From contig JAHBMJ010001008.1 in assembly GCA_018398765.1 (NCBI GenBank), positions 1-36,877 of the forward strand: a stretch of 36,877 bases of DNA, read 5' to 3'. Under the pieces are notes generated by a model. The model made no database searches. It was not told where the DNA came from and saw only the letters and a list, made by a program, of their open reading frames with translations. The position numbers were made by a program, and so were the translations under genes. This DNA comes from Chromera velia. Taxonomy: Eukaryota > Sar > Chromeraceae. Numbering within the stretch: position 1 is the stretch's first letter; each line of letters begins with the position of its first letter. This document shows positions 2,791-32,183 of this stretch, piece after piece.

Positions 2791-3314
2791 ACTAGTTGAT
2801 TGACTAATTGACGGACTGAGAGCGGAAGGGGGAGAAGCATGCATATGTATGAATATAGCATGGACATATGTATACATATATTTCGATCATCATGCATCGG
2901 ATGCATGCATGCATACATGAGAATAAAGTCCCTGAAGTACAAATCGGAGTAGACAGTGGTGACGAAGAGGTTGTCCAGCCTGAATGCTACCTAGCACAGA
3001 GGCACACAGGAGATATACAGATACCTGTAGAAGGCTATGCAAGCTCGGAACGGAAAGAGAAAACATATATGGAGACGGCATGCGACACTTTCAACATGCA
3101 TGCAGTCTGCTAAGCAACACCTTCAACAGCCTGAGGGGCCCTCATGTATATATCCCTCTGATGCAAGTCCTGTGAGGAGTCCCTGATAGGCAAATTAAAA
3201 ACTTTTGGAGCATCTATACTGTCACTCAAGAAACAATATTGAAGGTTTACAGACTTACACTCCCAATCAGAGGTCTCAAGTTGTGTGTCTTAAATTTTCT
3301 CTGTATAGGCGATG
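2791..3314. other. Stretch with no recognisable gene
   Basis: AT-rich unique sequence with several GCATGCATGC-type words. Short open frames have no recognisable motif. Confidence 0.4.
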
Positions 3315-3665
3315 TATAAGGGGCATACTATAAGGGCTCATAACTTGCACTGCCTTCTAGAGCTAAAGACAATCCTTATAATAACGTCTAGAGAGCTCTC
3401 ACTGTTGGAGGGAGAAGTCCATCGGTAAGTCTGACAGTCTAACTTTATAGTACGATGACTCTTTGAATCAGGCCCACTCTCATGCTTAATCTATTAATTG
3501 CATCTCTGCGTATGCATGCTCGTCTATTGATCAGTCAGTCTACGCGCACGCCCGCGAGCCATTCCGTTCTTACGCAGGCTAAGGCTGCCAAGCTAAGCGA
3601 TGCCAATTCTAGTTAAGTCACCTTAAGTGCCCCATAAGCCCAAACTCTTGGCAATCACCTCACAC
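3315..3665 (+). repeat. Duplicated segment, copy 1 (uninterrupted)
   Basis: This segment begins TATAAGGGGCATACTATAAG and ends GGCAATCACCTCACAC. It matches 6411-7000 in the same orientation apart from scattered substitutions and a 232-bp insertion present only in copy 2. Homology stops abruptly at both ends. It contains no open frame of note. It may be a non-coding dispersed repeat. A long-terminal-repeat reading was considered and not adopted. Confidence 0.85.
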
Positions 3666-6410
3666 ATGCCCGCCCACCAGACCAACGTCCACGCTTGGTT
3701 CAAATGTAAGCATGCACCTCACACATGCTCGCTCACAGGGCGGGTAGATAGAAAAATCCACATAACAAACAATTTTAAACACTCTGACTCATAACTCTTG
3801 CCTGAGAGTCTCTTTGTGCAGTCTCTGAAATACACACAAGCGAGATCAAAGATCAATTGATTAAGTGTTCGTATAGAATGCATCACAAACTTCAAGTCCA
3901 AACACTTATACGTGTGACTTGTCTCAGGGGATTCATGTGATTTCTGGCTGAACCAATACGATTGGATGCACTCTGTTTCTCTCCCTCTTATTCCAGACTC
4001 TTCCCATCAAGGGTCACTGGATGAATGCATTAGGTGCATTGTCTATGCGATCGAAGAATAAGACTCGAGTCACCCTGGTTCTATGGATCGCGATCTTTCC
4101 CTTCCTGTGAATAGATACCGAGTAGGTATCATACCATGCAGCCTGTCATAAATCTAGAAGGCATACACAATGCGGCCACTACTGTATACACCCTGCACTC
4201 CCCCTACGCAGCGCACACACACTCGGTAAGAGTATAAAGAAGCTTAACTCTGCGTACTCAGAAGACTCGAGACTTTGAAACTCTGTAGCCGACTACCTGC
4301 TGACTGAGCAAGGCAATCAACTCAGAGGTCAATAAGAACACACTTTCCAGCCAGACCAAAAGCAGAGAGCAATTCAAGGCACACACATTCAGAACAAAAG
4401 CAAACTGGGATGCTGCGCTGGCTTACATATGGATATCATTCGCAGGGTTTGACTCCCTGACATAAATGATCGAAGCGCCTTCCGCCCGCCGGCCTACAAC
4501 ACACACAACGTGCGCTGCATGCTGAGCCTCACTCCCAATGCTCCTCACAGCGGCTTTCCGCGATATGTCAAAACTATCTGAATGACCCTGGTGTTTTTGG
4601 TCACCCTATGATCACCTTTTCCTTCTCTGCTTCATACAGCGACCACCTGTCTCTATACAGAGACAGCCCAACCTTACTACAGAATTTGTGCCCCAAACTG
4701 CACACCAGATTCAAAAACATGAACGCTCGGGCGACTCCCTCGATTGAAATCGAGGCGACTCAACCAGAGTACAAGTCGACGCGATCGAAATGTACTATAC
4801 GCATGCTGCTTCAATTGATGCGCAGTTTTCTTCTGCAGCAAGTGCATGAAAACATCCGATCTCACTTAGGCTTCGACCGTCTTGCTGCATCAAGATACCC
4901 TATGCTTCGATCACAGTTTCTCATTCAGACAGCTCGATCGATTCTTCTCTGACATGTGCCTCTTTTATTAGAATGTTTAGCATGCTCTCTTCTCTTCTCA
5001 GGAATTAAAAAAAAACTAAAATTCACAGATCGACACATCCAACTTCCTGGCACCAAACCAAGCTCTCCGTCTGGCGTGAATAGCAATCGCCCGCTGCAAT
5101 TCGAAGACATGCAGCTCACCGCAGCTTGCCTAACTGCGGGGGCAAAGAACTGCACACCCTCTTGAGCAGTCCGACCCAACAGCCGAACACAGTGTATGCC
5201 ACTCTCGAAAACTCTTTAACCAAACATTGGAGATCCAGTGTGCTGACCTCTCACCCTTCTTTTCCCTTCTCTCCATCTCCTTGTTTTTCAAGGTGTCTGT
5301 TTCTCTTTGCTTTGAGTCTTGGAAGTCCATCTCCCCTTCTCTCTTTCTTTTCTCTGCATTATCCTCCCACACCCAGACGAACAGAGGGAAAGGTCAGAGA
5401 ACAGATGAAAATAAAACACATTCACCCTCACGACATCACCTTGCCTCCTGTCTCTCTCCACTTCTTTCAATTTTTCTTTCATTTTCTTTTCTCCCCAACT
5501 ATCTTCAACCCCCATTCATCTTTCACAAATAGAGAAAGAAAACAGTCAGAGAGATTCAAAAAGACACACAAATGAGAGACAATAGACAAATGCACCGGCC
5601 ACCACCAACCATCATCATGAGTCTCACCCCATACATACCACCTCCATCTGAGACTCCCCTCCAAACAAATTCCTCCAAACACAACAGAAACAAAAAAGTT
5701 CCAACAAGCTTCCAAGCCTCCAAGAATCTATCTGTGATAACAGCTCCTATGTCGTGTGCTTCCGTGTGATGCAACCGCCGTGCCTTCATGGCACTTCTAT
5801 GCAGTTAGAAGGCGGCTTGAGACTCCCGGTGATGTCCAATAAATCAGACTGAGCACGAAAGGACCTTCTTCTCAACCAAAAGGTCGCTGCACCTTGATGA
5901 AGCTCCTCTGTTTCAATGTGTACAAGAAAAACACTCTAAGACTTGTACAGCGGCCAAGAGATCCTGCTTCTCTCCTTGGGGTACTTTCTCTATGGGCAAC
6001 AGCGTCTCTGCTTGATGACCGTCACGTCATCAGGGGTCAAAGTCAGTCTCCTCAATCTTCTCCATCACTTCTCCCTGCTTCAAGCTCCAAGTTCTCCTTC
6101 ACTTCTTGCAGTAAGGTTCCATGAATACTGCTCTTCCACCACAAGCGGCAGAAAGCAGAAACACCTCTCAAACCTCTTCAGCTCCTCATCTTCCCTCGCA
6201 GCGCCATAAAATTCATGACAGAATGAAACAACACAATGGAGCTGAAAACTGTCTGAATCGATCAATCTTACGACTGTCATTGCACAGTGTACTACTCATT
6301 AAATTTTCATTGAGTGGACAGCCCATGTCTTTACTGAAAGCTCTGATGGATCTCAACAGGCTTCATCACACTGTCTGCCCCTGTATAAACAAAAGCTCTG
6401 CTAAACCACA
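3666..6410. other. 2.7-kb stretch with no convincing gene
   Basis: Several open frames of 60-150 codons occur, the largest at 5126-5575 (plus) and 4608-4952 (plus), but they overlap frames on the other strand and show no domain or signature. From about 5230 to 5560 the plus strand is pyrimidine-rich, which explains the open frames there. A short direct repeat CCTCACACATGC lies at about 3658 and 3717. I cannot support a gene here. Confidence 0.45.
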
Positions 6411-7000
6411 TATAAAGGGCATACTATAAGGGCTCATAACTTGCACTGCCTTCTAGAGCTAAAGACAATCCTTACAATAATGTCTAGAAAGCTCTCACTG
6501 TTGGAGGAAGAAGTTCATTGGTAAGTCTGACAGTTTAACCTCATATGATGACTCTTTGAATCAGGCCCACTCTTATGTTTGATCTATTGATTAGACCTCC
6601 CTGAACCTAACTACCACTTAAAAGTTTAAGCCGCATTTTTAGATAAGCTTGAAAGTCTACGCCGCAGGCGCGGATCATTTATGGTGTTTTGAAAGCTAAA
6701 GCCGCATATCTAGACGGTGTCTTGACCGTCTATACCGCAGGCATGGACGATCTCTTGAAAAACGATGCCGCAGATAGAGATCATCTTGATTATATTTTTT
6801 TAAGTGATACTTAGGTTCAGGGAGGTTATTGATTGCATCACTGCGCATGCATGCTCGTCTATCGATCAGTCAGTCTACGTGTGCGCCTGCGAGCCATTCC
6901 GCTCTCACGTAGGCCGAGGCTGCCAAGCTAAGCAATGCTAATTCTAGTTAAGTCACCTTAAGTGCCCCACAAGCCCAGACTCTTGGCAATCACCTCACAC
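6411..7000 (+). repeat. Duplicated segment, copy 2 (split by a MITE)
   Basis: Copy 2 of the segment at 3315-3665 starts TATAAAGGGCATACTATAAG and ends GGCAATCACCTCACAC. It is interrupted at 6593-6826 by an inverted-repeat element. Copy 1 supplies the empty site, so the insertion came after the duplication or hit only one copy. Confidence 0.85.
6593..6826. mobile_element. 232-bp MITE with internal tandem units
   Basis: The ends are inverted: ACCTCCCTGAACCTAA at 6595-6610 matches the complement of the right end at 6811-6826, and similarity continues inward for about 28 bp with few mismatches. The sequence TATTGATT occurs on both sides (6585-6592 and 6827-6834), and the matching position in copy 1 has a single TATTAATT. 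Two extra bases (AG) sit between the left duplication and the inverted repeat. Inside are about five degenerate units of 31-40 bp, each starting TTGAAAG or similar and carrying CCGCA. There is no coding capacity, so it must move in trans. Confidence 0.85.
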
Positions 7001-7089
7001 GATGATCCTTCATTTTTTTATTTTTCTCCCGCCATACATTTTTTTTTTACCGGCGAAGCCAGAAAAAGCTTCTGGACAAACTTTTTGTG

Positions 7090-20524: not shown

Positions 20525-20732
20525 GATAATAGCTAAGAAATCAGTCGATCGTCCGAGGATTCATGCTCATACTGTCTTTTGCGAGCTGTTTTCTATCTTC
20601 TACGAGCTGCGCTCTCAGAGCGAATCAGAACGAAAGCTTCCCGAGAAGAAAAGGTGAAGAGACGGCAAAGTTTTGGACACACGTGCAACAGTCAAAAATC
20701 CTTAGCCGTCTTACTTTTTCTTTGTGGTCAGA

Positions 20733-22871
20733 ATGACAGAACAGGAGGAAAGAGATGCAGAGACGAACTTTCTGAAGTGCTCTGGCCTCTCTAATATCAG
20801 CTCAGATGAAGAAGGGACCCACAAGGAGATGCTGAAGGACAGGAAGAAGATGCCCGAGCAGCCAGCTCTCACAGAAGGTGCCATGGAAAGGCTACTCCAT
20901 GAAAGCGAGGCTCGAACAGAAGAGAAATTGAGAGGGAAGATCCAGAGACTAAAAACCAGTATAGAAGAGATAGGGGAGCAGCAAAGAAAGATGCAGCAGA
21001 CGGTGAACGATCACGAAACAAGACTGGGAAATTTGGAGAAGGGATAGAAAAGATTGGCCAAGGAAAAGGTGGAAGAGGAGAGGAGAATCTGCTCACAGGT
21101 TGTTCTTGGACTGAAATTGCCCAAGAAAGACATCCGCATACACGCAAAGAATTTTATCTACATAGCAGCACTCGATCCCAATGGGGTGAGAAAAGATACC
21201 CGACTGCAGGCTGCAGCGTTTGCTGAGATGATGTTCTAGGCATTCTAGGGGGTGATGTTGATGAACCATCAGTCGTGGGGGTCAATGACGAAGATGGTCT
21301 TCAGTGCGGAAACAGTAGCAAAGGATCTCGACTCCCTCTTTGATGAATAGAACAACATGCAGCACTCAGAAATAGGAGACCAACTCCGCTGTGTGATCCC
21401 AAGGACGAAGGAGCAGACAGACGCGGCAACGAAAAAGTGGGCAGTGGGAGTGATGGGAGATGCAGCTTCCAGTGATCAGAAGAAAGAAGAGGCGAGGAAG
21501 GCCCTTTAGAGACTAGGCATTCCCCTCTCAGAGCAACCCCAACCGAGAGCCCCAGAGGGAGATGAAGATCTCGTGATGGGGGGAACACAGAGAGATGGCC
21601 AGCAAACAGGAATCCCGAAACCAAGCCCCAGGATTGAGCAGAAGGGAAAGAAGAGGATGCAGGAGCAGAATGGAAGTATAGAGCAGCAGCAGGCAAATGC
21701 CGGGGGGGAGGCCTCCGGGGTTGGCCATTAACGGGGATGGCAGTTGAAGGAGGAGAAGGGAGGAGGAAGAAAGAGAGAGGTCGGGAGCTGGCCTCCCCCC
21801 GGAAGAAGGCTCTCAAGGGAAGACGAGCAAGAAACGTTGATTGAGGAAGAAAAGAGATCGATAGAAGAGTTCAGAAAGAGAATAGAAAGGGTGATGGAAG
21901 CAAAGGAAATGTTGAAGAGAAGGATGAAGTTGTTAGAGGCAGAGATGACTGAGTGGACAGTGAGAGACACGATAGAGAGGGTAGAAAAGATGGGGCTCGG
22001 GGAAGAACTGAGAAAAATCGAGAGACGGAGGACAAAGAAAGAGCATGCCGGGAAGGCTCCATCCGAATCTAACGTTTTGAGAAGGAACAAGTTTTGGGTG
22101 CTGAGTGAGGAAGGGGAGGAGATGGAAGGAGGCACACCGAATTATGAGACCACCTGTGGAGCCCCCAACGAGTTGCATACTCTTTTAAAAAAATTGTGTA
22201 GAAATTTTCACTCTTCCGCTCCGAATAGTCGAGACTCTTTTTCCTCTGCAAATTGGCTCAGCCGGCCTAAGCGCAGGGAGGAGAAGCTCACTGGAGACCC
22301 CGAGCTGATGCAAGGGGGGGGGAGTGGGACTGCTTTGCGGGGGGCAGTCCCTATACAGGTGTGTCAATTAGACGAGCCTCGGCTACGTTCCTCGCTACCC
22401 TCCAACTCTCTTTCACACTCACTGAAAAAAGATGTAGACCAGTGTGCTCCCCCCCCCTTGTGCCCTCCTTTCCGTGCAGAGCGATGTGAAGGCGAGTGCA
22501 CAGAGAAGGACGGGGCAACTCCGAACAGAGAAAGGACCAATCCACCTACAGGGGAGACGGAAGGAAACCAAGTGAGAAAAGGTGGAGGATTTTTGTTGGG
22601 AAGAAGGAGAGGAAGGAAGGAGAGTCAAGGGGAGGAAAAAGAAGAAAAAAGCGATTTCGTTCCCTTTTAGTTAGACCCCTGGGATGTAGATTGTGGCCCT
22701 GCCAGAGAGAAAGAACCAGAAAACACCCTCGAGCATCCCAGATATTTCTGCAGCATACATCCATTCTCGATCAACACACCCGAGCAAGACGGATCCCAGT
22801 TTGGCTTCTCTTTCTCCTCAGAAATCGAAGGCTCGTCAGAGAAGGAGAATAGTTTAATTCACAAAGATGAA
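20733..22871 (+). pseudogene. LINE ORF1-like region, coiled coil (with in-frame TAR codons)
   Basis: It starts at ATG 20733 (MTEQEERDAETNFLKC). Residues about 60-105 form a heptad-rich coiled coil (IQRLKTSIEEIGEQQ), as in ORF1 proteins of L1-type elements, which trimerise and bind element RNA. A second charged helical region is encoded at about 21830-22040. In-frame TAG occurs at 21045, 21237, 21246, 21348, 21507 and 22668, and TAA at 21729, with no TGA. Either 22668 (TAG) or 22872 (TAA) could be a true ORF1 terminator. No frameshift is needed anywhere in this block. The RNA-binding fold is inferred from position, not seen. Confidence 0.6.
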
Positions 22872-23123
22872 TAAATACGTGCCAACATGTGTTCATGTGT
22901 ATGTTCTTCTCTTTCCTGTTCCGTTCGAGCTTCTTTGCCTTGTTGTCCCCCACCAGGTCTGTCTTCTTACAGCTTCACTACTTCTTCTACGTCTTCCTCT
23001 TGTTTTTCTTTTTCCTCTGAGTCTCTTTATTTTTGTTCTTCTTTCTCCGGCACTGGCGGGGGAAAGAAAGAGGGCGGGAAAGGACAGGGAGGGAGGGGTG
23101 GGAAGAGGCCAGACCGCCGGGAG

Positions 23124-23126
23124 ATT

Positions 23127-23161
<35 letters not shown>

Positions 23162-23505
23162 TTCTTCCTCCTCCTCCTCTTCTTCTCCTCCTATTTCCTC
23201 TTCTTCTTTTTCTTCTTCTTCTTCTTCTTCTTCTTTTTCTTCTTCTTCTTCTTCTTCTTCTTTTTCTTCTTCTTCTTCTTCTTCTTCTTCTTCTTCTTCT
23301 TCTTTTTTTTCTTCTTCTGCTTCTTCTTCTTCTGCTTCTTCTTCTTCTTCTTCTTCTTCTTCTTCTTCGTCTTCTTCTTCGTCTTTGTCTTTGTCTTTGT
23401 CTTCGTCTTCGTCTTCATCTTCGTCTTCTTCTTCTTCTTCTTCTTTTTCTTTTTCTTTTTCCTCTTCTTCGTCTTCCTCTTCTTCCTTTTCTTTTTTGTC
23501 TTCCC
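23124..23505 (+). repeat. (TTC)n microsatellite inside the LINE frame
   Basis: About 380 bases of TTC/TCC/TTT triplets, later GTC-interrupted, lie between ORF1 and the endonuclease. In the element's frame they encode a Ser-rich tract of about 130 residues. The other frames give poly-Leu, poly-Phe or poly-Glu/Lys and are artefacts. Confidence 0.92.
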
Positions 23506-23555
23506 CCGTGACAAACAGGAAGAGCAAACAAAACAAGAAAGACAAAGGAGTAGAG

Positions 23556-24420
23556 ATGTGGGCTCTGAACATAAGGGGAAGAACGGAGAATTTGGTGCAA
23601 AGCCCGCTTTTCACAGAAGAAACGAAAGGAGCCGACATCCTTTTTATGAATGAAACTAGAACAGAGAGGACAATGTGCAGTGTGAATGGAGGAAGACTGT
23701 AAGGAACGAATTTCTCGTTAGTAAGGGAGGGAAGAGAAGTGACGACGACAGGGGGGGTGATGGTATTGATGAGCAGAAAGGCAAGAGAGCTGGGCTTTAC
23801 GACAGAAAGAGCAATGGAGATAGTGGTATTTGCAGAAGCACCAGGCTTCCCGCTCTTCGTTGGCTTATATGACCCCCATGAAGAGTCAAACTACGCAGAT
23901 AAGACATACTTTAACAATTTGGCAGAGAGAATCGAAGAGAAAAGAGCAGAGAGAGAAAGAAAAGCCTTAGGAGAGAGCAGATTCTCAGAGGTCTGTGTGA
24001 TGGGGGACTTCAACGCCCGCACCAGAAAGAAAACTCCTCTAATAGTCTGGACAGGGAAGGGAAGGGGTGAAGGGGAAGAGTGGGCATAAACAGGCAGGAG
24101 AGAGGAAGTTTTCAGACTGGAGAGGGAGTCTGAAGACGAGACGGAGAACACGAAAGGAAGGGCTCTTATTCGTTTTTGTGAGATGGTGGGCATTGTTCCT
24201 CTGAATGGACTGAGGCGGTTTGCAGTCGAAGAGGGGGGGGAGAAGGTAGCTTTCAACTTCAATGGATCGTTTACCTTTGACAGGGGGAGAGACAGAGGGA
24301 GGTCCCTGATCGACTATGCATGCATGTCTCCTGTATCTCTGCCATCTGTTCTCTTTTTTTCTGTATTTTGTGTGTGCTCAGCTCGGTCAGACCATTCAGC
24401 TCTTAGATTAGTCCTGAGGG
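23556..24420 (+). pseudogene. LINE AP-endonuclease domain
   Basis: The domain starts MWALNIRGRTENLVQS and continues with ADILFMNETRT (the metal-binding Glu of APE enzymes), GFPLFVGLYDP, MGDFNAR (about 24000-24020, catalytic Asp and Asn), RSLIDYACMS and SARSDHSALRL (about 24380-24410, the Asp-His pair). These are the landmarks of the endonuclease that nicks target DNA to prime reverse transcription. All the key residues are present. The frame carries TAA at 23700 and 24087 and no frameshift, so the active site could be intact if those codons are read through. A Lys/Arg/Glu-rich linker follows to about 25240, with TAG at 24777, 24975 and 25239. Confidence 0.8.
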
Positions 24421-25339
24421 AGGAAGAAAGAGAGAATGAGAGCGGTGAGGGAAGAGGAAACGAGGAAGAGAACGAAGCGAACCAAGAACAGAACAAAAAG
24501 AAAAGAAGAAAAGATAGGCAAAGAAAGACAAAAAAGAGGGAAAAGAGAAAGAAAAACGAGAAAAGAGAAGATCAAATCAAGCCAAAATGGAAGGGAACGC
24601 TCATAAAGGAAGGAGAGCAGAGGTACCTCCAAGAGCTTCAGAAAAGAGTGAAGGAGGAAAAAGTGAGTGAGGTCTTTCAAAAAGCAATGGATATGGAAGA
24701 GGGAGAAGAAATAAAGAAAGACTTGCTCGATGAAGCATACCAGAAATTCCAACACATCAGAGAGAAAACCTTCATGTAGGCAATAAGGAAGGAGAAGAAA
24801 GAAGAAAGAAAAAGGGAGAGGAAAGAAGCGCCAGCAGAAGCGCTGAGAGGGGAAGGAAGAAAGCAAATAAGAAAACTCAGAAGAATAGAGAGAAAAGTGA
24901 GAGAGGAAATCAGAGGCCTGAAAGCAGAAAGAGAGCAGAGGGATAAACGAGAAAAGGAGAGCAGCACCTCAGCTTAGGAAGGAGAAAGATTAAGACAAGC
25001 ATATGAGAAGAGGAGAAAACAGTTAGTCATAATAGAGAGAGCGCTGAAAAACGTGGTGACGAGAGAGCAACGGAAGGCAGAAAAGAGAAAGGCGGAGAAC
25101 ATAAGAGCCGAAATAAATGAGGGAGGCTGCTGGAAGGTGTGGAGGAGACTCGGTGAGGAAGACAGGAGGGCAGCACCAAGAAAAATAAAAGACAGCATGA
25201 CGACCCAGCAGGTAGCAGAAGGTTTCAAACAAACGTACTAGCTGCCAAAGGAAGAGAAAGAAGAGAGAAAGAGGGAACAAGAAGGAAAAACGACAGTGAG
25301 TAGAGCAATTAAGGAGAAAGGATGGCATATAACAGAGGA

Positions 25340-27919
25340 AAAGGAGGTAAAGAAGCAATGAAAGGAGCAAGCAACCCCAGAAAGGCCGCTGGAAAGGACG
25401 GAATGCCCCCAGAAATGCTGAGAACGATGGAGAAATCAACTGAGCTGGTATCTTTGTACGTTTTATTAATTAATGTTGTATATCGTTTCGGCTGGTAGCC
25501 GAAAGGGTGGAATGACTTGCCGGTGATGGCTCTTCCAAAACCGGGTAAGTCACTCGCATTAATTGGGGGATGGAGGGGAGTGCACCTGGTGGTAGCAGAT
25601 GCGAAATGGGGGGACATGATCATCAGAACGAAGGTGGAAAAGGAAGCCAGACAGAAGCCATAGCAGTTCGCATACAAGAGAAAGGCAGGCACATGTGATA
25701 CAAATTTTCTTTTGCTGTTCGTTATTGCTCGAATGGAAATGCTCAGTATTGCTTTTGTTGACTTCACACGGGCTTTCGACGAAGTGAGGCTGGAAAAGTT
25801 GAAAGAGAAATTGAGAAAGGCAGGGGTGGAGGAAGGTCTGATCAGATGGGTTGAGGCCTCTCTGGAAAAAGTGAGGGCACGGGTGAAGAGAACGAGCATG
25901 TGGTATCTGGAAGACAAAGGACTCAAGTAAAGAAGCCCGAGCAGCCCTTCCTTTTACTCTGTGTACACACATGACTTGCCAGAGGAAGTAGGAAAGAGGA
26001 GAAGACAGAGACGACAGACCGACAGACAGAAGCTAAAGGTGCCGACAGGAGAAAACGGGAGGTAGGTCGATTTCCTTACCCCTCTGTTTGCAGATGACAC
26101 AACACTCCTTGAATCCTCAGATAGACAGTTGAACCTTCTTCTTTCGAACCTTGTAGCCTTTGCAGAACCTCTCCGTCTTCTATTCTCTGACAAGTCGAGA
26201 TTGGTCCGGTTTGGCCGCATCGCATCAAGAGAGAAAGAAGAAGTTAGACTGGGGGAGATAGTGATAAAAGAAGCAAGAGAGCAACCCTACCTGGGACTAG
26301 TCCTATCCGCCGACTGCAACCTAGAGACCATGATGGAAGCGTAGTCAATCAAAGCAGAGAGATGCATGCAGGGACTGATGGGGAAGATAGGAAGGGAGGA
26401 AGGGATTCCACCTGCTGATTGCTTCAATATATTTAAACAGACAGTGCACGCCGTATGGTTGTATGCCATTGGATGCAAAATCTATGTATGCCCAGATAGC
26501 GCATATATAGAATTCGACGAGAAGTAAAGGAGATTTGTCAGGTTTGTTTTGCGTTTGAGAAAGAAAGAAAATTGTGACACGCTGATGATAGAAGGAGGTT
26601 TCATTCCGATCGATCTTGAAGTGGCTTCCAGAACGATCCGGTGGGCAGGGAAGGCTTTAAAGGAGAAAAAAAACGAAGCGGTAGGGCAGGCAATCCTCAT
26701 ATACCTGAGAGAGGGGGTAGAGAACGAAATGGGGGGCCGGGGGAGAGGAATGCATCCTTTTCATCTTTTCCCTCATCTGAAGCAATGTGCACAGGCACTC
26801 TACACAGACAGAGGAATGCACCCTTTTGTAAGAAAAAGACTAAAAGGAAGCGTAGGGCAGCGAGGAACACAGGTAGTCAACGAGAGAGTGGACGGGATAG
26901 AGAGATGGCTGCTGAAGAGAACAAAAAATGAGCTAGACGAGAAAAAGAGAGAGGCGTTTGCACATAGAATAAAAAGAAACATAAAAGAGAAGAACAGTCA
27001 GGAGAAGGCAGAACTGACAAGAGTGATGATGGCTGACGTGCACAGAAAGGTCTCAAACGGAAACCGTCTCCACCTTTCTTTGTTTGAAGACAGAGCAGGT
27101 AGAAAGGTTGGGTCGACAATGAAAATAGACAGAGAGAGAATAGGGAGAGCCCCTTTTTGCTATACGAGAGTGGCGCCGCGATTGGAACACAAGAGGAGAG
27201 CAACATGCAGGGTGGGAGACAGGGCTGTGGCTGCAACTCAGGGAAAAATTCTGGTAAGGGGGGGAGAGAAGGTGCCGTTACAGAAAAGGACGTGCCAGTT
27301 CTGTCGAGGGTGGTTGGGAATCGAGGTGGTGGAAGATGAAATCCATCTGGTGACAGAATGTTCTGTTTTTAACAGAGAGAGAGCAGAGATGTTCAGAAAG
27401 ATAGAAGAGAAATGGGACAGCAAGATGGAAGAAAGAGCCAGAAAGGCAGCCACAGAAAGAGAAGGACTCAACAGAGAAGAGGGAAAAAGAGATAACTCGA
27501 TGCTTTTCTACTTTTTGTTGAATGAATGTCATGCCGGAGTGGATGAGTTTTTGGAATGGGCGTCATTCAGACGGAGGGTGTTTGAGGAGTGTCCAGGACG
27601 GTACGGACACATAGAGGGAGACGCTGTGGCGGCCAGACATGCAGGAATCACTGGAAGGCAGCAGGCGATCGAGAGACTAACAAAAGAATATGAGGAGACA
27701 ATTGATAACTTAGAGACGACCGAAGGAGCGTTAGGGTGGGGAAGGAGGGAGCCGCAGAAGAAGATTGATAAAGCAAACAAGAAGAGCGAGGAAGCCCAAA
27801 TCACATGCCGTTTCAGATCGATTTTCAGGCCGGAAAGCCAACGCGGATCCAGAGCCGTGGCTCGAACAACGAACAATCATGCAGCAGCGACCAGGGCAAC
27901 AGACTCTGGCGGGCCCTGA
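25340..27919 (+). pseudogene. LINE reverse transcriptase and C-terminal zinc knuckle
   Basis: The RT begins with KAAGKDGMPPEML (the usual KAxGxDG box), then LPKPGK, QFAYKRKAGTCDTN, FVDFTRAFDEVR (first catalytic Asp, about 25755), FADDTTLL (about 26087, variant of YADD with both Asp), PYLGLVLS and, near the C-terminus, CQFC...EIHLVTEC (27290-27360), a CxxC-H-C knuckle common at the end of LINE ORF2. The frame joins that of the endonuclease by one net frameshift near 25357 (EEKEVKK/AMKGASN). In-frame TAG occurs at 25496, 25661, 26063 and 26342, and TAA at 25928 and 26525. No TGA occurs until 27917-27919, which I take as the end. The last 456 codons are uninterrupted. Confidence 0.85.
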
Positions 27920-28043
27920 GGGCGGGGTCTGATACCTCAGCTTAGGCTGAGGAACGCCCCGCCCTGCTAGCTCTGGCGACAGATAGACATAGCGGGAAGG
28001 CCCTAGGGCGAAACATATCAATCAATCAATCAATCAATCAATC
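27920..28043 (+). repeat. LINE 3' UTR: hairpin plus (TCAA)n tail
   Basis: GGGCGGGG (27920-27927) pairs with CCCCGCCC (27957-27964). Inside it CCTCAGC (27935-27941) pairs with GCTGAGG (27946-27952) around a TTAG loop. About 50 bases later the element ends in (TCAA)n from about 28018 to 28043. A 3' hairpin followed by short tandem repeats is what many LINEs use for recognition by their own reverse transcriptase. Confidence 0.85.
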
Positions 28044-28553
28044 ATGCTAGACATGATCCCAAGATATTTATTTTTGGAGTATGAAATTAAAGTAACGATG
28101 ATTTCAGTGATCATTTCACTTTAAATAAATAATTTAAACCATCACAACACTGCAGTAGCACTTAAAGAAGAAAAGTTGAAACTGTAGAACTGAAAGAAAA
28201 CATCACTTTTCTAGTGTTGTTTGCAGGGTAGTTTTAAAGTGTTTAAAGGGAAAATTTTAAAATTTACACTTAAAGTGCATGGGGGTGTCATCTGATACTT
28301 TATTTAAAAATTTAAAACTATTAGTATCACGCCTAGGATCCATGAATCCAAGTAAGGATATACAGAGGTTGAAGGACATGAGTCACATGACAAGTTTTCA
28401 ATCAAAACGGTAAGAATTAACCGATCAATCGGATTCGATCAGAACCCTTCAACGATTCATTCAATCAATCAATCAATCAATGATGATTATCAGTCAATCA
28501 ATCAATCAGTCAATCAATCAATCAAACAATCAATCCGTCTATCAATGATTCGA
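28044..28553. other. AT-rich spacer with a second (CAAT)n array
   Basis: There is no gene. An imperfect (CAAT)n/(TCAA)n array lies at about 28461-28545, right beside the aldolase stop codon. It resembles the LINE tail but is not preceded by the LINE hairpin. Confidence 0.5.
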
Positions 28554-29702
28554 TCAAGTCCTCCACCCCCTAAAGGTCTCTCGAAGAGACGCCGTCGCAC
28601 TCCCCTGCGACAACGACGGGTGGGGTCCAGTGAAGGTTCCTGCAGCTGCCAAACCGTTCGCTCGTCCGAGAGCTGCGGCCATCTGTTTGGCCTTCTCTTT
28701 CCCTTCTGAGCTCTGATCGGATTTGAAAATTTCCAGAACAGATGCTTGGAGGGCCCGTCCGAAAGAAAATGACAGAGGCCACGGACACACAGACTTTCCC
28801 CGTCTCTCTTTCTCTGTATTGATTGCCTGAAGATTCAAAGTGGCTTCCTCTTCTGACATACCCCCCGACAAAAACATCACCCCCCCAACCTCTGCCGGGA
28901 TGCATTTGACCAAAACATCTAAGGTGGCGGTCGCTATTTCAGAGGGACTCGGCTTGGGCCCTTCACAATCTGCCCCCGGAATGCACATCTGGATCTTCAA
29001 CAGACACCCGGGAAGAAATACATGTATGTCCATCAATGCTTGCACACAAGCTGCCAGCACTCTCTCAGTCGCAGAACAAAATTCTGCCAAACTGTGAGTA
29101 CCATCAATGAGAATCTCAGGTTCAACCAGAGGAACCAGACCTTTCGTCTGACAAGTCAATGCATACTCAGACAGCTGCTGACAGTTCAGTGCAATTGCAG
29201 TCTCTGACGGCCACCCTTTCTCTGCATCAATTTTCAGAGCTGCCCTCCATTTGGTAAAGCGCGCTCCACAGGTAACGATCTCATCGCAGAAGTCACGGAG
29301 TCTCTCGAGTCCCTTGGTGGTCGTCTCACACAACCCCGGAGGAGGACGCGCGGAACCGTCTCCCGGTTCGTTTGGAGACGGAGAGAGGGGGACCAGGCCC
29401 TCGTCAACCTTCACACCCAGGAGAACCCCACGGTCAGCCAGAGCCTTCGTGAAGGGAACACCGTTAGAGTCTGCTTGGTAGAGGGCTTCCTTGAACACAA
29501 TGGCGCCGCCGTAGCAACTGGAGATGTCGGCTGTGTAGAAAAGTTCACGGTATTGTCTCCGAACTTCTTCGGTGTTTTCGAACCCTGCCTTTTCCAAACG
29601 TTTTCCGATTGTGGACGTGCTCTCATCTGAGGCCAGAATGCCTTTGCCCTTGGCGGTGAGAGCAGCCACCGTGGCTTTCAAAAGTGCTTCGTCCAACGGC
29701 AT
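28554..29702 (-). CDS. Class I fructose-bisphosphate aldolase
   Basis: This single open exon of 382 residues ends in TGA. It would cleave fructose 1,6-bisphosphate to DHAP and glyceraldehyde 3-phosphate through a Schiff base. Conserved features: ASDEST with Asp26, VKVDEGLVPL at 97-106, KWRAALKI with Lys151 and Lys157, EPEILIDGTH at 194-203, the Schiff-base Lys236 in LLKIQM, LSGGMSEEEATLN at 278-290 and FSFGRALQAS at 312-321. Three oddities: LLKPNM is LLKIQM, about a dozen extra Pro/Gly residues lie at 107-124, and the usual C-terminal Tyr is absent (end RGWRT). The ATG follows a splice-acceptor-like GTCTGGTGCAG directly, so a 5' leader intron or an upstream exon with a targeting peptide is possible. 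As written, no targeting signal is present. It diverges from the DUF262 gene across 500 bp. Confidence 0.93.
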   Translation of the reverse strand: MPLDEALLKATVAALTAKGKGILASDESTSTIGKRLEKAGFENTEEVRRQYRELFYTADISSCYGGAIVFKEALYQADSNGVPFTKALADRGVLLGVKVDEGLVPLSPSPNEPGDGSARPPPGLCETTTKGLERLRDFCDEIVTCGARFTKWRAALKIDAEKGWPSETAIALNCQQLSEYALTCQTKGLVPLVEPEILIDGTHSLAEFCSATERVLAACVQALMDIHVFLPGCLLKIQMCIPGADCEGPKPSPSEIATATLDVLVKCIPAEVGGVMFLSGGMSEEEATLNLQAINTEKERRGKSVCPWPLSFSFGRALQASVLEIFKSDQSSEGKEKAKQMAAALGRANGLAAAGTFTGPHPSLSQGSATASLRETFRGWRT

Positions 29703-30202
29703 CTGCACCAGACAGGCAGACGCTCAGACTGTGAGGAAGAACGTACTGGCTATCCGTCTACACACTGAGCGTCCGTCTCCCTCGACGAGACGGCAAACAA
29801 GCCTTCCGAACAAACACCGAACAACAAAGAGTAGTGAGGTCTTACTTCAAACTCCGAAAAACCTTACATATACTAAGAGCCGTGGGAAATCTACAGACGA
29901 AACTGCCACACACTGCCACTATTAATATATATCTGCCACTGAGAGATCTACGGAGAACCCCGGCGGACCTATATATGGAGGCGGGGGCGCTGCGGGGCCG
30001 CACATGGGCATCCATGGGCCGACTGCATGCAATGTGAACGCGCGGCCTGTCCCTGTCCGTCTCCCCGTCTCCTTTTCTGTCCATGTCTCTTGTGTGCCAC
30101 AACGCCACAACTACTCGGCTTTCTCTATCATTCAGACTACTGGATGCATGGAACAGCCATCCTTCTGCTTTCTAAAATGTTACTGAGTAATCAGATGGCA
30201 GG
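29703..30202. promoter_or_regulatory. Divergent intergenic region with TATA-like boxes
   Basis: This 500-bp spacer lies between the two divergent start codons and should hold both promoters. CTATATATGG at 29969-29978 and AATATATATC near 29923-29932 are near-palindromic TATA-like words that could serve either direction. No start site can be assigned from sequence alone. Confidence 0.35.
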
Positions 30203-31240
30203 ATGACTCAAGACCCCCTCATTCCTGCGTACTCGTGGCTTTGTCCTGCGATACACGGAGACGCCGCAAAAGAGCATGAATGCTATCCACTCGCGTATGG
30301 CGACTTCTTCGCGAAGTTCCAGCTGGAAATTCCTCTTTTCCAACGGCGCTATTGCTGGGCAGCTCCGATAATAGAAAAATTGTTCCAAGACATCATGACG
30401 GGAGCCAACCTCCACACTGGACTCGGGAAAGTAATTCTGTTTCCACAGGAGAAGAGCCCAAGCAAGCACAAACTTCTGGACGGTCAGCAGAGGACGACCA
30501 CTCTTCTGCTGCTTCTCAAATGCCTGAAGGAAGTTCTGCCTCCTGGAGATTTTAATGGCCTCGTCCCCTTCTCGATCGAGGATCGCTTGAAAGTTTCACT
30601 CAACGACACACCCTGTTTTACCTCTATCATGACAGGGGACAGCGGCTCTTCTTCCAACCAGTGTGAAGGCTGCCGTGTGCATGAGAGCTACGCTTTGCTA
30701 AGGCGCCTTATTGCCGCCACACCAGCGAACCAACGGGTTCTCGCATTGGAGCGGGCGCTGCAGCAGAGACTTGTGACTTTCGTTGTACATACTGCGGATC
30801 CTCACGGAGAAAATCATATTTTCCTCTGGCTCTCTGAAAAGAGCCGCTTTGCTGCCTCAATGGTCTACAACAGGTCCCCTGGTGAGACGATGGCAGAGTC
30901 TGACTTGATACGGAACCTCCTCCTTTCTCTGTACCGAGGGGACGAAGCACAGATGGAGGGGTACAGATCTTTCTGGCTTCCTTTGGAAGAAAAACATAGA
31001 AGTCCGGAAGACCGAGACAGGTTTTTCAAAAGCTCCCTTGAGCCTCTTGCAAAAGAGATTGTGGGAGATCGGTCGGAAGGACTCTTCAAAAAGACCCCCA
31101 CCATGCCCGGGTGCAAACCCCTTCTCTACGACCACTTCAGGCACCTCCTTGCGACCGCACTGCCTACGAAAGGAAAGTGCAGCTCTCCGAATGACGTTCT
31201 GTCTAAGCTCATACATCTCTTAGACACGCAGGCAGGCTGA
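30203..31240 (+). CDS. DUF262 (GmrSD N-terminal-like) domain protein
   Basis: An intronless frame of 345 residues ends in TGA. The N-terminal half carries the DUF262 signature: FQLEIPLFQRRYCW at 39-52, a DIM...H..G stretch, and LLDGQQRTTTLLLLL at 91-105, whose DGQQR is the family's nucleotide-hydrolysis motif. VYNRSPGETMAESDLIRN at 221-238 matches the later conserved region. In bacteria this domain is the NTPase-like half of GmrSD-type modification-dependent restriction enzymes and related defence proteins, often joined to an HNH (DUF1524) nuclease. No HNH motif is seen here. The protein ends soon after, so it could act without nuclease or with a partner. The domain is mainly prokaryotic, so acquisition by transfer is likely but unproven. 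The start is the first ATG of the frame. Confidence 0.82.
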   Translation: MTQDPLIPAYSWLCPAIHGDAAKEHECYPLAYGDFFAKFQLEIPLFQRRYCWAAPIIEKLFQDIMTGANLHTGLGKVILFPQEKSPSKHKLLDGQQRTTTLLLLLKCLKEVLPPGDFNGLVPFSIEDRLKVSLNDTPCFTSIMTGDSGSSSNQCEGCRVHESYALLRRLIAATPANQRVLALERALQQRLVTFVVHTADPHGENHIFLWLSEKSRFAASMVYNRSPGETMAESDLIRNLLLSLYRGDEAQMEGYRSFWLPLEEKHRSPEDRDRFFKSSLEPLAKEIVGDRSEGLFKKTPTMPGCKPLLYDHFRHLLATALPTKGKCSSPNDVLSKLIHLLDTQAG

Positions 31241-32183
31241 GGCTAGAGGCATCGAAACAAATGAAACCCGAGTTACAGAACATAATGTACCTTCATGAAT
31301 AGAGAAGCAAGGGAGCTGAAATTCATAAGTGTTGCTCAAATTCATAATTAAATTATTTGAATATCAAATTCGATCATAACTCATAAGCTGATATCTAGCA
31401 GCTATAGTGGACCGCTGCTCTGACCGCTAGGATTCCCGGCAATTTCCCGTAACATAAAATCCTATGATCCCATCCTATAATAAGTATCACAATACACTTC
31501 TCAGTATACTGTATTTCCCTTTTTCTGGTACTTTTTCTTTTAATATGTGCACGAAATTACCACGAATTTCTTTACGAATTTCTATAGCTCAGCCAGCTTA
31601 ATTTAAAATTTGAATTAGGTTTAAGTTCAGCTTTTGCACTGTTATAGCTAGCTCGGTCTCGGTATATGGCCGGAGTAACCTAGGCCCCCCATATGAAAAA
31701 AAAAAATAAAAAAGTAACTGCCTAAATTAAATTAATTTTTCGTATGCCGGGGGTGAGTGGGGTGCTTTTTGCCCCCCCCTCTGCATAAGAGACCGGCGCT
31801 TTTCCGCAAAAAAACTCGTTCTCATAATTGGTAAGGAGTTAGAAGCTGAAACTTTGTGTAAGAAGACGTTGTAACGATAGAAAAAGAACTATAGAACAGA
31901 TTTTTTATATCATTTCTAGAAACATAGGCTGCCATACAAATTTTATAATTCGATAACGAACCCGATAGAGATGCATCGCGCATCGTTGTGCTTCTATGGT
32001 TTTCATGCCTTCCTTTATAGATATATATACGACAACGATCCACGCACACATTTTTTAAAAGTAGGTGTTCTTTTATATGGGTCCAATAGTCTCTAGTCCT
32101 CATTCATAAACTCATTAAGCTCTTCTTGTAGACTTCTAGCTAGTTCTGCCTTCTGTGCAGGTAAAGAAGCGCTGCTCAATCTC
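31241..32183. other. AT-rich spacer, mostly without a recognisable gene
   Basis: Most of this shows no feature. The last 90 bases (about 32183-32095), read on the minus strand, look like the continuation of the chromodomain frame beyond the inserted element (LPAQKAELARSLQEELNEF). Confidence 0.4.

Follow-up and report, generated by a model that had tools for sequence, protein, structure and literature searches.

The stretch analysed here (the window) comprises 36,877 nucleotides of Chromera velia DNA (assembly GCA_018398765.1, contig JAHBMJ010001008.1, positions 1 to 36,877 of the forward strand) and carries on its plus strand an essentially full-length long interspersed nuclear element (LINE), a non-long-terminal-repeat (non-LTR) retrotransposon whose reading frames contain many TAG and TAA codons (jointly TAR, where R is A or G). 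C. velia is a photosynthetic relative of apicomplexan parasites, placed by taxonomy within Alveolata, Colpodellida. The element runs from about 20572 to 28041, ends that it shares with sister copies elsewhere in the genome. It comprises open reading frame 1 (ORF1; 20733..21731), with a conserved stop at 21729, and an ORF2 region (21732..27970) that is disrupted in the window copy. A reverse transcriptase domain (RVT_1, E 5.1e-11) lies at 25535..26296, where it takes up residues 127-380 when the frame from 25157 is translated with NCBI table 6, and the same domain was matched in an unbroken piece of sister copy L009 (E 9.8e-12). A TTC microsatellite array (23126..23493) was excluded from the counts, and an ATCA-repeat tail (28017..28044) marks the 3′ end.

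Neither the LINE frames of the window nor the L009 piece matched an apurinic/apyrimidinic (AP)-type endonuclease at the Pfam threshold; GDFNA and SDH-like motifs were spotted by eye and may be endonuclease motifs. A PDB search with the unbroken LINE piece matched nothing, and a homolog search with 463 residues of the LINE C-terminus returned a single UniRef protein, from C. velia CCMP2878 (84% identity over 60% of the query). The sense strand of the LINE is purine-rich, with an AT skew between +0.25 and +0.44 for five of the seven kilobases from 21 to 28 kb, and the encoded proteins are consequently rich in Lys, Arg and Glu.

Searching the assembly (177.8 Mb, 4,040 contigs) with the LINE gave 41 further matches in the list, or 42 with the window copy, at 90-96% identity, some of them fragments of one copy; 40 of 390 candidates were scored. 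For comparison, the C. velia genome paper reports 193.6 Mb across 5,953 scaffolds, and transposable elements that add up to about 30 Mb (PMC4501334). The sister copies share a 3′ end and show 5′ truncations of variable length. The 20 best-scoring of the 41 other matches were aligned to the window copy, and this set of 21 copies underlies the analyses below.

An earlier model-generated note, made from the letters of this DNA without database searches (hereafter the sequence-only reading), had listed 19 in-frame stops in the LINE, and all are present: 13 TAG and 6 TAA. It was also correct that no TGA occurs before 27917 in the two joined frames, which are free of this codon over 1,567 and 920 codons, and in allowing that some stops might be true ORF1 ends. 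At 21729 every one of the 12 covering copies, the window copy included, has a stop (TAA in 8, TGA in 4), so that this codon is probably no lesion and genuinely terminates ORF1. It follows that the remaining 18 TAR codons (21045..26527) are derived.

Sister copies reveal from what they were derived. At seven TAG sites (21045, 21237, 21246, 21348, 21507, 22668 and 24975) the sisters mostly read CAG, at five TAA sites (22872, 23700, 24087, 25928 and 26525) mostly CAA, and at four further TAG sites (24777, 25496, 25661 and 26063) mostly TGG, so that for 16 of the 19 stops the majority codon of the sisters is CAG, CAA or TGG. TAG 26342 faces CGG, TGG or CAG, and TAG 25239, the sole site requiring a transversion, faces GAG, AAG or AAA. 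The check that the sequence-only reading had proposed, an alignment of copies at the TAR columns, thus came out on the side of mutation. Its placement of the protein end at TGA 27917 did not hold: 17 of the 19 sisters covering this position have CGA, which marks the TGA as another lesion, and the next in-frame stop, as judged from the window sequence, is TAG 27968.

Across 2,268 codons the column majority contains one stop only, that at 21729, and the TAR sites vary between copies. The commonest derived stops in the 21 copies are CAG>TAG (58), TGG>TAG (47), CAA>TAA (39), CGA>TGA (23) and TGG>TGA (10), with GAA>TAA (5) among the rarer ones. Expected counts, computed from the measured context rates, lie close to the observed totals for CAG>TAR (69.5 expected, 60 observed), CAA>TAR (36.4, 39), TGG>TAR (48.1, 48), CGA>TGA (22.9, 23) and TGG>TGA (15.6, 10). 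The sequence-only reading had proposed CpA-to-TpA mutation, which cannot make TGA; the 23 CGA>TGA changes show that the process is not confined to CpA. Nor is the scarcity of TGA in the window copy the telling sign it was taken for. The majority frame offers 56 CAG, 28 CAA, 31 TGG and 15 CGA codons, from which about 8.8 TAR and 2.2 TGA are expected in the window copy, against 16 and 1 observed; a TGA count of at most one is unremarkable (P = 0.36), and TGA lesions are common in the sisters. Judged from the alignment, the LINE copy of the window is dead and its TAR codons are nonsense lesions, mostly ruined Gln and Trp codons.

Scoring of substitutions against the column majority revealed a strongly one-sided spectrum. 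C>T or G>A changes account for 3,335 of the 3,884 substitutions (86%), at per-site rates of.103 in CpG,.079 in CpA,.037 in CpT and.030 in CpC, and the rates are alike on both strands; A>G (.004) and T>C (.006) are far lower, and every transversion falls below.003 per site. The proposal that C>T and G>A mutation in repeats had made TAR from CAR and TGG was therefore right in kind; the specific targeting of CpA that it assumed was not borne out, CpG being struck at least as hard. Within CpA, rates differ with the third base (CAT.100, CAA.085, CAC.079, CAG.061). CHG methylation (H being A, C or T) of the plant CMT3 type was considered and rejected, as CAG is the lowest of the CpA contexts, and CTG (.036) and CCG (.021) show no rise over other CT and CC contexts. 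The C>T load of individual copies correlates with their load of other change (Pearson r 0.87, Spearman 0.66). Strand-coordinated deaminase clusters were likewise sought, and no excess over simulation was found: adjacent changes are of the same type at a frequency of 0.526 (0.519 simulated), and 890 pairs lie within 10 bp (885 simulated).

Two further repeat families in the window show the same bias. One is a 235-bp dispersed repeat (6594..6828) resembling miniature inverted-repeat transposable elements (MITEs), with an apparent 8-bp target duplication, for which 24 other near-full-length matches were listed at 90-93% identity. In 22 sequences (20 matches, the window copy and the L025 copy), 74% of substitutions are C>T, with rates of.126 in CpG,.116 in CpA,.044 in CpT and.042 in CpC. 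This repeat sits inside the right-hand direct repeat of the third family (the LINE being counted as the first), an element at 3300..6600 whose two ends are direct repeats of about 355 bp. Six copies at 90-91% identity were compared with the window copy, a fragmented copy and relatives at 67-82% being excluded; among the 837 substitutions in these seven copies, 87% are C>T (CpG.123, CpA.094, CpT.037, CpC.027), and the longest stop-free stretch across them spans 190 codons. The direct repeats (3315-3668 and 6411-7004), about 90% identical, form the ends of a 3.7-kb element; they differ from each other by 30 transitions and 1 transversion, and they could be LTRs.

Duplicated host genes provided the control. 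The two tubulin genes are 93.7% identical over 1,373 aligned bp, including 1,227 bp of aligned exon without an amino-acid change, and their ratios of transitions to transversions are 23:23 at fourfold exon sites (208 sites), 8:5 in a 5′ noncoding stretch (128 sites) and 5:7 in the C-terminal exon (145 sites). The closer pair of histone H3 genes (L064 and L065; 87% identity over 690 bp) gave 12:11 at fourfold sites (74 sites) and 20:22 in noncoding sequence (263 sites), and a third, more distant H3 gene (L063) gave fourfold ratios of 17:22 and 17:19. Fourfold sites of the LINE, taken from ten independent pairs, show 350:30, as against 35:34 at the fourfold sites of the tubulin and close H3 pairs (Fisher P 4.5e-15) and 28:27 in host noncoding sequence (Fisher P 9e-13). 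Furthermore, the LINE rates would lead to an equilibrium GC content of 8.8%, and the LINE flanks (56.8 kb) have 46% GC and are depleted in TpA (odds 0.69). Since silent and noncoding ratios in host duplicates are near 1, the C>T bias is, on these few genes and on composition, neither genome-wide nor a consequence of duplication as such. Selection on genes could confound the comparison, although silent and noncoding sites were used; plastid inserts were considered as a neutral control, and no psbA-family match was present in the assembly.

Insertions and deletions follow a pattern of their own. Relative to the majority, the window copy carries four: 6-bp insertions at 23963..23968 (target AAGG) and 26464..26469 (target ATGG), both with the footprint pattern described below, a 3-bp insertion, and a 1-bp deletion at 25355, its only frameshift. 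The 20 aligned LINE sequences (the window copy and 19 others, L026 being excluded) contain 33 six-bp insertions among 60 in total, and 23 of these 33 match exactly a rule by which a site LabR becomes Lab, followed by the reverse complement of LabR, followed by abR; random 6-mers in their place matched once in 3,300. With placement freed, two more insertions (in L024) fit, giving 25 of 33. The third repeat family behaves alike: 13 of its 15 six-bp insertions are exact, and the other two are one base off by inspection. In both families 6 bp is the commonest length, and these insertions are private to copies (L009-L028, L055-L060). We infer that they may be footprints left on excision by a cut-and-paste transposon that duplicates 4 bp of its target, with hairpins sealing the flanking ends at a one-base stagger. 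No resident element with 4-bp target sites was seen in the pieces examined, and no clear target motif emerged. In bulk LINE flanks the pattern occurs 36 times versus 15.6 in shuffles, a result that is not decisive, since control patterns also exceed their shuffles (22 to 88); the tubulin and H3 pairs have no gap longer than 3 bp and offer too little sequence to judge.

These data bear on the argument that 19 nonsense changes should have been accompanied by many frameshifts. The observation behind it stands, as only one frameshift exists (placed earlier at about 25357, here at about 25355); the lack has an explanation in the mutation spectrum and the 6-bp insertions. Frameshifts are few mainly because C>T and G>A changes make up 86% of substitutions, leaving few indels per nonsense change, and in part because 6-bp insertions account for more than half of the total (33 of 60).

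Elsewhere in the window, an open class I aldolase ORF (28557-29723, minus strand) and an ORF with a GmrSD_N domain (30191-31240, plus strand), which we presume to be of the DUF262 type, adjoin the LINE; the stretch 29900-31400 matched only itself in the genome. Degenerate GGAG/GGAA/AGTG/TGAC tandem arrays occupy 1433-2819, and the region from 10 to 13 kb, which contains TC/TG repeats, has an AT skew of about -0.37, opposite in sign to that of the LINE.

Any cause has to account for the observed direction and sequence context of the mutations, for their recurrence in three repeat families and for their absence from the tested tubulin and H3 duplicates. On both strands, C-to-T change in these transposable elements is about tenfold more frequent than change of A/T to G/C, and it is strongest in CpG and CpA. 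We consider it probable that transposon cytosines are methylated and that this decay reflects deamination of the resulting 5-methylcytosine, with the TAR codons among its lesions. Methylation would be placed on transposons at CpG and CpA and more weakly at CpT and CpC, and 5-methylcytosine would then deaminate over time by the ordinary process. CAG, CAA and TGG each carry CpA on one strand and would yield TAG or TAA, and CGA would yield TGA; frameshifts would stay few, indels being rare beside C>T and more than half of the insertions being 6 bp long. The order of contexts (CpG, CpA, CpT, CpC), the strand symmetry, the sparing of the tested genes and a load in step with other change all fit methylation and deamination as the source.

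A search for C5 methylases (PF00145, exon by exon) gave four matches, apparently from three host genes (L029, L030/L031 and L054). Two have DNMT2/TRDMT1 as their nearest PDB match (L029 scored 116.5 bits against it, versus 26.7 against DNMT1), and the third was judged by eye to contain DNMT2-like pieces, four of which drew a blank in Pfam; one DNMT2 gene is the more usual number. DNMT1, DNMT3, DNMT5 or RID types were not seen in this search, which may miss intron-rich genes. One host gene (L066:1979-3317), two of whose exons carry an SRA domain, is a possible methylcytosine reader, as this domain reads methylated cytosine. Searches for MBD and APOBEC_N were uninformative, the control genomes giving no signal either.

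Several observations weigh against methylation and deamination. CpC and CpT mutate six- to eightfold above A/T transitions, so that either wide methylation or another source of damage is needed. The methylases found resemble DNMT2, which is usually a tRNA enzyme. The window copy bears roughly double the expected TAR load (Poisson P 0.019). The host control consists of two tubulin and three H3 genes only, and other short repeats in the flanks show pairwise ratios of transitions to transversions that range from 28:2 and 24:2 down to 24:13 and 33:18.

Among the alternatives, the one that survives best, itself unlikely, is a transposon-directed mutator outside the fungi that acts on CpG and CpA, spares gene duplicates and employs an enzyme other than DNMT1, DNMT3, DNMT5 or RID. 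One of the three DNMT2-like paralogs, guided by the SRA protein, might be that enzyme.

Repeat-induced point mutation (RIP), the active C>T mutation of duplicates recognised by homology that ascomycete fungi carry out, appears more doubtful than such a mutator. It would account for the dominance of C>T and G>A throughout the three families, for CpA among the favoured contexts and for a load borne by repeats, and the sequence-only reading had called its mutation model RIP-like. The cited literature describes RIP as acting in the CpA context with a dependence on repeat length and identity (PMC12543289), and the DNMT4/RID methylases as apparently confined to fungi (PMC12344493). In C. velia, CpG equals or exceeds CpA in every family, and a 235-bp element is struck as well as a 7.5-kb LINE. 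RIP-like behaviour is further contradicted by the tubulin and H3 duplicates, whose fourfold ratios stay near 1, and by a C>T load that scales with other changes and not in bursts, a correlation that argues against RIP without excluding it; in addition, no RID-like methylase was seen in a search of limited power.

We regard as slightly less probable again an APOBEC-like cytosine deaminase acting on transposon DNA or on a reverse-transcription intermediate. C>T and G>A changes in all contexts would fit such an enzyme, whereas the equivalence of the two strands and the absence of strand-coordinated clusters would not. The 235-bp MITE-like repeat, presumably a DNA element without a cDNA stage, shows an equal spectrum.

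A genome-wide C>T bias, caused for example by weak uracil repair and merely visible in neutral transposon copies, is the least probable of these mutational alternatives. It would raise every C context, as is seen; the host duplicates, both at silent sites and in their noncoding flanks, and the composition of the LINE flanks speak against it. Finally, the reading of UAG and UAA as Gln by the element or the host, suggested by the 19 TAR codons and the lack of TGA before 27917, can be dismissed with near certainty: CAR or TGG predominates at the TAR columns of the sister copies, the TGG sites encode Trp and not Gln, TAR positions are copy-specific and accompanied by TGA lesions, and the majority frame has a single stop. 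The sister-copy alignment thus rules out recoding and settles the question for this LINE.

If methylation followed by deamination is indeed the cause, the mutation map predicts where modified cytosines should lie in C. velia: in transposons and not in the tested genes, at CpG and CpA first. None of the titles listed in our searches of the open-licence PMC library dealt with DNA methylation in chromerids or with hypermutation of their transposons; PMC4751559 combines the terms 'Chromera velia' and 'DNA methylation'. Should 5-methylcytosine at CpA prove true, it would bear on the evolution of transposon methylation close to the root of Apicomplexa, as well as on the DNA methylation capacity of DNMT2-type enzymes. 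A more general caution also follows: a run of TAR codons without TGA in a repeat is no evidence of an altered code.

Compared with known systems, the element resembles other non-LTR retrotransposons in its RVT_1 domain, two ORFs and short-repeat tail, and in the constant 3′ end and variable 5′ truncation of its copies; it differs in having no endonuclease domain at the Pfam threshold. With nuclear codes in which UAR encodes Gln (NCBI table 6, used by many ciliates), the window copy shares in-frame TAR and the absence of TGA before 27917, yet in the sisters CAR or TGG mostly occupies these TAR columns. With RIP in Neurospora and other ascomycetes, C. velia shares repeats loaded with C>T changes, including CpA>TpA changes that create TAG and TAA. 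It differs in that CpG is at least as affected as CpA, tested gene duplicates are spared, 235-bp repeats are affected, the load tracks other change and the limited search yielded no RID-like gene. Transposon decay by deamination of 5-methylcytosine, as in plants, vertebrates and fungi, offers the further likenesses of C>T on both strands with CpG strongest, of transposons affected and tested genes not, and of a load proportional to other change. The C. velia pattern departs from it in a CpA rate nearly equal to that of CpG, in the lack of a CHG peak (CAG.061, below CAT.100), and in its setting, a chromerid alveolate whose methylases, as found here, are DNMT2-like.

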